NCBI RefSeq assembly: GCF_020509005.1
Contig: NC_063013.1
Location: 620,001-684,000, forward strand
Origin: Fulvia fulva
Lineage: Eukaryota > Ascomycota > Dothideomycetes > Mycosphaerellales > Mycosphaerellaceae
Direction of reading: 5' to 3'
Length of the DNA: 64,000 nucleotides
Shown here piece by piece: positions 847 through 8,673 of the stretch. The notes beneath the pieces are model-generated. The model was given only the letters and a program-made list of their open reading frames with translations, was not told where the DNA came from and made no database searches. Within the stretch, counting starts at the first letter, position 1; each line of letters begins with the position of its first letter. A program made the translations under genes and the position numbers.

Positions 847-854
847 TTTTTTTT
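847..854 (+). terminator. Pol III-type T8 terminator of tRNA-Ile
   Basis: Eight consecutive T begin 9 nt after the discriminator base. There is no run of four or more T inside 594-838. Confidence 0.7.
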
Positions 855-8379: not shown

Positions 8380-8404
8380 GGCAACGTAGCAAAGTGGTTA
8401 ATGC

Positions 8405-8459
8405 GTGAGTTCTTCCAACGAGGAACTGTTCGCACTTCAATCTTCTAACCCAGCTACAG
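8405..8459 (+). other. Spliceosomal-type intron 1 in tRNA-Ser
   Basis: 55 nt, donor GTGAGT, branch motif CTAAC at 8445-8449, acceptor TACAG. It lies between tRNA positions 25 and 26. Confidence 0.85.
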
Positions 8460-8518
8460 GTTTGACTCGAATACGCTCTTCGGAGTAACATTCTGATATC
8501 AAATACCCTCGGGTGCGC

Positions 8519-8574
8519 GTAAGTTGTTGTAACCACATCAACTTCTGGTGTGTCCAATCTCTGACATGTAACAG
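8519..8574 (+). other. Spliceosomal-type intron 2 in tRNA-Ser
   Basis: 56 nt, donor GTAAGT, branch motif CTGAC at 8561-8565, acceptor AACAG. It splits the 5' strand of the T stem (GC|AGG). Confidence 0.85.
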
Positions 8575-8588
8575 AGGTTCGAGTCCTG

Positions 8589-8643
8589 GTAAGCTGAACT
8601 CGATCTCTTGTCGTTTCTAAACAATGTTCTAACAGCATCGCAG
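8589..8643 (+). other. Spliceosomal-type intron 3 in tRNA-Ser
   Basis: 55 nt, donor GTAAGC, branch motif CTAAC at 8629-8633, acceptor CGCAG. It splits the 3' strand of the T stem (CCTG|C) and separates the two halves of the acceptor stem. Confidence 0.85.
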
Positions 8644-8668
8644 CCGTTGTCGCTACAACCATCCATTG

Positions 8669-8673
8669 TTTTT
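8669..8673 (+). terminator. Pol III-type T5 terminator of tRNA-Ser
   Basis: Five T start 17 nt after the discriminator base. There is no run of four T within 8380-8652. Confidence 0.6.

Follow-up and report, generated by a model that had tools for sequence, protein, structure and literature searches.

Spliceosomal-type introns in nuclear tRNA genes of Fulvia fulva: a predicted meeting of two splicing systems

Two split tRNA genes in one window

The stretch of DNA analysed here, the window, comprises 64,000 nucleotides of contig 2 in the assembly of Fulvia fulva (67,169,167 bases in 14 contigs). Positions 8380-8652 of its forward strand hold the body of a predicted primary transcript, delimited from the raw sequence, from ARAGORN after intron removal and from a structural fit, which would mature into tRNA-Ser(CGA). 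Exon 1 (8380-8404) carries the 5′ strand of the acceptor stem and the D arm, tRNA positions 1-25, and is followed by a spliceosomal-type intron of 55 nt at 25|26 (8405-8459; GTGAGT...CTAAC...CAG, predicted branch A at 8448). The next exon is itself divided by a canonical tRNA intron of 26 nt at 37/38 (8472-8497) into a first part with positions 26 to 37 (8460-8471), where the anticodon CGA lies at 8468-8470, and a second part with positions 38 to 50 (8498-8518), which takes in the long variable arm together with the T stem's first two bases. Intron 2 (8519-8574; 56 nt, GTAAGT...CTGAC...CAG, predicted branch A at 8564) falls at 50|51, and intron 3 (8589-8643; 55 nt, GTAAGC...CTAAC...CAG, predicted branch A at 8632) at 64|65. 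Between them, exon 3 (8575-8588) supplies T-arm positions 51-64 with an unbroken B box, and exon 4 (8644-8652) closes the gene with position 65, the 3′ strand of the acceptor stem and the discriminator G. We take TAGCAAAGTGG at 8387-8397 to be the A box and GGTTCGAGTCC at 8576-8586, contiguous in the DNA, to be the B box, and a TTTTT run at 8669-8673 on the same strand is the predicted Pol III terminator.

Joining the exons gives a complete cloverleaf. The structural fit pairs the acceptor stem as GGCAACG/CGTTGTC with one G-U, the D stem as GCA/TGC, the anticodon stem as TTTGA/TCAAA and the T stem as GCAGG/CCTGC, and leaves a 13-nt variable arm, a discriminator G, the anticodon CGA and zero stem mismatches. 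The T stem is interrupted on both strands (50|51 and 64|65), so that its pairing exists only once the exons are joined. ARAGORN finds no tRNA in the raw window and Rfam cmscan reports no match at E≤1, as expected of a gene in pieces. Removal of 8405-8459, 8519-8574 and 8589-8643 makes ARAGORN call tRNA-Ser(CGA). Alternative intron sets at the locus also yield ARAGORN calls, namely Val(AAC), Ala(TGC) and a Ser(CGA) whose intron 2 begins at 8513, and among all these sets only the former pairs all stems in the structural fit. A preliminary description of this DNA had placed three insertions of 55, 56 and 55 nt at the junctions 8404/8460, 8518/8575 and 8588/8644, and the same coordinates were recovered here; its donors, branch motifs and three CAG acceptors all proved correct on rereading. 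The structural fit likewise bears out a T stem cut on both strands and perfect after joining, as well as an intact acceptor stem, long variable arm and discriminator G, and the canonical intron that had been described beside the anticodon is present.

A second gene of the same architecture had also been announced for the window. It is a tRNA-Ile(AAT) gene at 594-838 on the forward strand, with its anticodon at 736-738 and a canonical intron at 740-750, and was picked up by a script that combines intron removal with ARAGORN once looser donors were allowed. Its three GT-AG introns lie in the D loop (609-663; 55 nt, GTTTGT...CTAAC...CAG), at 25|26, the tRNA position of Ser(CGA) intron 1 (675-727; 53 nt, GTATGT...CTGAC...CAG), and at 55|56, where the intron interrupts the B box (769-820; 52 nt, GTAAGT...CTAAT...CAG). 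The joined cloverleaf has a single T-stem mismatch, C50-U64, and the predicted Pol III terminator is a T8 run at 847-854 (forward strand). Just past this terminator, at 887-899, there is a B-box-like sequence, GTTCGAAT, beside a gene in which an intron interrupts the B box; U6 genes can have a downstream B box, a likeness that we mention for this element.

A pattern of this kind could be an artefact of the search, where a free choice of introns finds a cloverleaf anywhere. GT and AG are common dinucleotides, several introns are picked together, and ARAGORN alone accepts several intron sets at the Ser locus. The search script strips candidate introns, defined by a GT donor, a TRAY-like branch motif and an AG acceptor, and passes the remainder to ARAGORN; because the finder demands GT, AG, the TRAY-like motif and a donor score above a minimum, these features do not count as independent evidence. 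The structural finder returned 12 models in the window, 10 of them at the Ser locus and 2 at the Ile locus, with best scores of 54 and 52. When the window was dinucleotide-shuffled forty times, 200,472 intron combinations in 2.56 Mb produced a single model with a score of 27, against 54 at the Ser locus, and a control of 90 kb from other genomic stretches also gave one, with a score of 35. No model reached 50 in the shuffles or in these other genomic stretches, a score line that was set post hoc, after the results were known. A looser scan with at most two introns per gene found no gene at all, because both genes of the window need three introns removed. The near-fixed spacing of the branch motif, which the search did not impose, and identical mature tRNAs at unlinked loci also speak against an artefact, to which we assign a next to negligible probability. 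A chance origin of the split cloverleaf, which had been called very unlikely from the beginning, is rejected here, since 2.56 Mb of shuffled sequence contained no comparable model.

Split tRNA genes across the genome and their copies

The suggestion that these two genes reflect a genome-wide phenomenon holds in the assembly as a whole, where 22 more split tRNA genes were found elsewhere. The resulting 24 genes represent 15 anticodons, lie on 11 of the 14 contigs and contain 45 extra introns of 49-62 nt. The census consists of 23 curated genes (43 introns) together with a tRNA-Thr(TGT) gene, L029, whose two introns were set by eye and then fitted. It includes Ser(CGA), Ser(AGA), Ile(AAT), three Asp(GTC), Lys(CTT), Met(CAT), four Gly(GCC), Leu(CAA), Leu(AAG), three Gln(CTG), Gln(TTG), three Thr(AGT), Thr(CGT), Thr(TGT) and Glu(CTC). 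All stems pair without mismatch in 18 of the joined models; four models contain a single mismatch and two contain two, the latter being Met L030 and a probably decaying Gln copy (L047, 1436-1679). At Leu(CAA) L033, a competing model with a different anticodon gets a slightly better score. The extra introns occupy the D arm, the anticodon stem, the variable region, the T arm and the acceptor stem, and a canonical intron is present too in 20 of the 23 fitted genes and in Thr(TGT). Some positions recur across isotypes: 25|26 in both Ser genes, Ile and Leu(CAA), 50|51 in both Ser genes and the three Gln(CTG) genes, and 9|10 in Thr(AGT) and Leu(CAA).

The loci scanned for split genes were all 28 matches of the Rfam tRNA model and all 71 of a B-box pattern, 10 of which lie within Rfam loci. 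Over the whole genome, the Rfam model gave at least 22 matches above its cut-off and at least 28 at E≤10, both lower bounds from 63 scored candidates out of 1234, and one of the 22 (L023) is a split gene. The B-box pattern shows no enrichment, with 71 matches versus 79 in the control. This locus selection favours a contiguous T arm, and the true number of split genes may therefore be larger. A genome pattern for a T arm joined directly to a donor gave 33 matches versus 75 in the reversed control; six of the 33 fell in loci already examined, and two of the other 27 were inspected and gave no tRNA model. Probes for fungal-type initiator-Met and Lys tRNAs, run without a positive control, had no match in the genome, and pattern searches of the assembly, equally without a positive control, found neither the initiator anticodon arm GGGCTCATAACCC nor a fungal initiator D arm. 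Judging from these patterns, the initiator tRNA gene may itself be interrupted, or may simply be different.

Two further kinds of loci were met in this survey. At L055, on the minus strand at about 1440-1820, a Leu-like sequence has at least four intron-like insertions and no single good cloverleaf, and it was left out of the count. L015-L020 are six tRNA-like copies of 115 nt on six chromosomes (contigs 1, 2, 5, 9, 12 and 4), each scoring 41.9 bits with Rfam; five are identical, L020 has one difference, and ARAGORN labels them Trp(CCA) with a long intron. They are possibly a dispersed tRNA-like element and not ordinary genes.

Several of the split genes occur in copies that share the mature tRNA and differ in their introns, which allowed a within-genome version of a test put forward in the preliminary description, namely whether the genes drift as pseudogenes: the exons are identical or changed in pairs, and the introns have diverged. 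Five Gly(GCC) genes have an identical mature tRNA, four of them with an intron at 62|63 (61-76% pairwise identity among these introns) and one, L012, without it. Two Asp genes with identical mature tRNAs (L036 and L091) have first and second introns that are 67% and 70% identical, a third intron placed differently, in the variable arm versus at 51|52, and a boundary of intron 1 shifted by one base with the spliced product unchanged. Between two Thr(AGT) genes of identical mature sequence, one has an additional intron at 9|10, and the introns at their shared positions are 52% alike, a level that unrelated introns reach as well; in the same alignments, the median pairwise identity over all tRNA intron pairs is 56%. 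Two Gln(CTG) genes, also with identical mature tRNAs, have introns that are 85% and 73% identical. This identity of the mature sequences across diverged introns and flanks reveals purifying selection on the mature tRNA.

The Ser genes offer a second line of evidence. A search of the whole genome with the full 273-base Ser(CGA) query gave, apart from the gene itself, a single match at E≤0.001, of 71%, on contig 1. This locus is a tRNA-Ser(AGA) gene (L002) with introns at 25|26 and 50|51, as in Ser(CGA). It has no third intron, and the 3′ strand of its T stem is unbroken where Ser(CGA) has intron 3. The first and second introns of the two genes are 68% and 61% identical. Of the pairs in their acceptor, anticodon and T stems, four show two-sided compensatory changes (three in the acceptor stem, one in the anticodon stem), a fifth, in the T stem, has turned into G-U, and none is broken. 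Introns separate the strands of the acceptor and T stems in the DNA, and selection has therefore seen the joined RNA.

These comparisons bear on the possibility that the split loci are decaying tRNA pseudogenes or relics, killed by the insertions while uninterrupted genes do the work. The decayed look of Gln L047, with its two stem mismatches, fits such an account, as do an uninterrupted Ser(AGA) gene (L006) that is also present in the genome and the 25 distinct tRNA-like genes called by ARAGORN in the examined loci that lack introns of this kind (six are near-identical copies and some are doubtful). Decay is contradicted by the identical mature sequences despite diverged introns and flanks, the paired changes that distinguish split Ser(CGA) from split Ser(AGA), and the maintained branch spacing and T-run terminators. 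Moreover, DNA queries of the whole genome found no uninterrupted near-identical copy of Ser(CGA), Asp(GTC) or Gln(CTG). Such a query picks up a 38-nt exact stretch, and whole uninterrupted copies that are near-identical are therefore unlikely, though diverged ones may exist; queries with the spliced Ser, Gln or L036-type Asp sequence miss even the split exons of the gene itself, so these blanks concern uninterrupted copies only. We reject the pseudogene interpretation on the identical mature copies and the compensatory changes, and regard it as very improbable.

Signals of splicing and transcription

All 43 introns of the curated genes begin with GT, have G at +5 and end in AG, though the finder itself imposed GT and AG and, in part, the donor score; the by-eye intron 1 of Thr(TGT) has a weaker donor, GTAATG. 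A CTRAY branch motif occurs in 40 of the 43 and is missing from three. In all 40, the distance between the branch A and the 3′ splice site is 10-13 nt, a value that the search did not impose (10, 11, 12 and 13 nt in 8, 18, 12 and 2 introns, respectively). Among other CTRAY candidate introns in the window and loci, 290 of 1568 (18.5%) have this spacing, which yields a nominal binomial probability of 5e-30, a value that is too small, some introns being related by descent. Donor, acceptor, branch motif and near-fixed branch spacing thus all fit the spliceosomal type that had been ascribed to the insertions from their sequence. A comparison with coding introns was made with homemade sets of introns that join open reading frames, which are few and noisy and make it a weak one. 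The five with the top motif score measure 50-66 nt and have the branch at 10-16 nt, the 11 best supported measure 45-81 nt (CTRAY stands at 10-22 nt in nine and is missing from two), and a looser set of 63 spans 42-90 nt; the tRNA introns set beside them measure 50-62 nt.

A different enzyme could in principle be responsible. Multiple ectopic tRNA introns, also at 55/56, are documented in the red alga Cyanidioschyzon merolae in the excerpted text of PMC3978253, where they form bulge-helix-bulge (BHB) motifs that are cut by the tRNA endonuclease, and the introns of F. fulva might be of the same kind. With a BHB geometry coded in part from those excerpts, a strict motif was found in none of the 43 introns and a relaxed one in two, against a mean of 1.9 in shuffles. 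This lack of excess, plus the branch motif at near-fixed spacing, led us to reject ectopic BHB introns, which we regard as very improbable.

The downstream flanks of the split genes fit termination by Pol III. The 60 nt downstream contain a T5 run in 20 of 23 genes; upstream there is such a run in 1 gene and inside the gene also in 1 (the decayed Gln copy); for T4 the figures are 22, 3 and 4 of 23. In 17 of the 23, the first downstream run of T4 or longer is followed by GC (TTTTTGC). A contiguous B-box pattern is present in 20 of 23 genes, in a set of loci mostly selected by that box; an intron splits it in Ile of the window and in Thr(TGT) L029, and neither Lys nor Met matches the pattern. 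Within the tRNA introns there are 3 runs of T4 or longer versus 7.7 expected in shuffles. Such runs are found in 3 of the 43 tRNA introns and in 4 of the 63 mRNA-like introns, so the depletion does not differ and provides no specific Pol III signature inside the tRNA introns. In the 80 nt upstream, a TATA-like word stands 33-76 nt from 18 of the 23 genes, whereas shuffled flanks give 2.9; the choice of words was post hoc, made from flanks already viewed. Such TATA-like words might help Pol III where the internal promoters are stretched.

The polymerase is a point on which we are less sure than on removal by the spliceosome. The same introns might be removed by the same machinery from a Pol II primary transcript that is later trimmed to the tRNA ends, an alternative that shares the main claim. 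In its favour are the coupling of the spliceosome to Pol II, the interruption of the B box in Ile and Thr(TGT), and a depletion of T runs in the tRNA introns that equals that of mRNA-like introns. Against it stand the T5 runs, which closely follow 20 of the 23 genes and precede 1 of 23, and the B box, which is contiguous in 20 of the 23, in a set of loci chosen mostly by that very box. A Pol II transcript seems unlikely, and Pol III transcription is retained in what follows.

Maturation, origin and significance

The explanation that best accounts for these observations is that 8380-8652 is a working tRNA-Ser(CGA) gene whose three introns would be removed by the spliceosome, and we hold this to be very probable. 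Pol III, possibly aided by upstream TATA-like elements, would transcribe from the A and B boxes as far as the T run and yield a single Ser(CGA) RNA of about 290 nt. The spliceosome would then remove the three introns of 55-56 nt, upon which the acceptor, D and T arms could pair. The tRNA splicing endonuclease reads the folded tRNA body, and it would act next, on that body, to remove the 37/38 intron; it is this dependence on folding that places the spliceosome first and the endonuclease second. Recognition that depends on position in the cloverleaf is also described in excerpts of PMC3978253. RNase P, RNase Z and CCA addition would finish the ends of the Ser(CGA) tRNA.

Extended to the genome, we consider it likely that a large part of the nuclear tRNA genes, among them all the Asp and Gln genes that were detected, needs the spliceosome and then the endonuclease on one Pol III transcript, with the capacity of the spliceosome setting the supply of tRNA. 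As to their origin, the pairs of copies with and without a given intron favour intron gain. The spliceosomal introns may have come, plausibly, from the introner-like elements of F. fulva, and their gain would have been tolerated because splicing restores the tRNA exactly. Introner-like elements with ongoing spliceosomal intron gain have been described in F. fulva and relatives (excerpts of PMC4457414), and so the species and the process coincide, but no sequence family is apparent among the tRNA introns here: the Ser(CGA) gene matched only its Ser(AGA) copy over the whole genome at E≤0.001, in a similarity search that skips very common words and for elements that lose similarity with age.

Textbooks keep the splicing of tRNA apart from the spliceosome, and a 2026 review does the same in its available passages (PMC13149111). 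The canonical introns of nuclear tRNA genes are, like those reported here, intervening sequences, but they sit at 37/38, form relaxed BHB motifs and are processed by endonuclease and ligase, whereas the extra introns of F. fulva lie elsewhere in the tRNA, are GT-AG, mostly have CTRAY and show no excess of BHB. A likeness in architecture comes from C. merolae, known for ectopic BHB introns and permuted tRNA genes, where 34 of 43 nuclear tRNA genes are disrupted and several introns per gene lie at unusual positions; these introns depend on BHB and endonuclease in an alga in which few protein genes have spliceosomal introns, whereas the introns of F. fulva are of mRNA type (excerpted text of PMC3978253).

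U6 snRNA, a Pol III transcript, is encoded by genes that can contain mRNA-type introns. Fungal 18S rDNA can harbour spliceosomal introns as well (Rogers 1993, cited in the excerpts of PMC11782384). Both examples share with the present one the insertion of mRNA-type introns into non-coding RNA, which for U6 is a Pol III transcript, but they do not involve tRNA or a large share of a gene class.

In the titles and abstracts of the open full-text matches listed, from any organism, we found no report of spliceosomal introns in tRNA genes, subscription papers and preprints lying mostly outside this scope. Two papers that pair both subjects contain no such report in their accessible passages (PMC10161547 and PMC4494063). 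The words “tRNA” and “non-coding” are absent from the accessible text of the introner paper (PMC4457414), and “tRNA” is absent from the available main text of the Race 5 genome paper (PMC9453070), the 2012 genome paper and the 2022 introner survey; a 2024 paper on splicing in F. fulva (PMC11694984) has it once in its accessible text, in a protein name. Spliceosomal introns and interrupted tRNA genes are each known, and their union as a route of tRNA maturation is new within the literature searched.

Two splicing systems would thus meet in one gene class, of at least 24 genes, and introns of the spliceosomal type would be able to invade the most compact of structural RNA genes. The action of the spliceosome on Pol III tRNA precursors becomes directly testable in a fungus, and the exact pairs of genes with and without an intron provide material for the study of intron gain. 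Finders of tRNA genes can miss a large share of them in such genomes, and the tRNA counts of related fungi may therefore be wrong. For F. fulva itself, the fungus of tomato leaf mould, the sequences suggest that the spliceosome would likely be needed to make these tRNAs.
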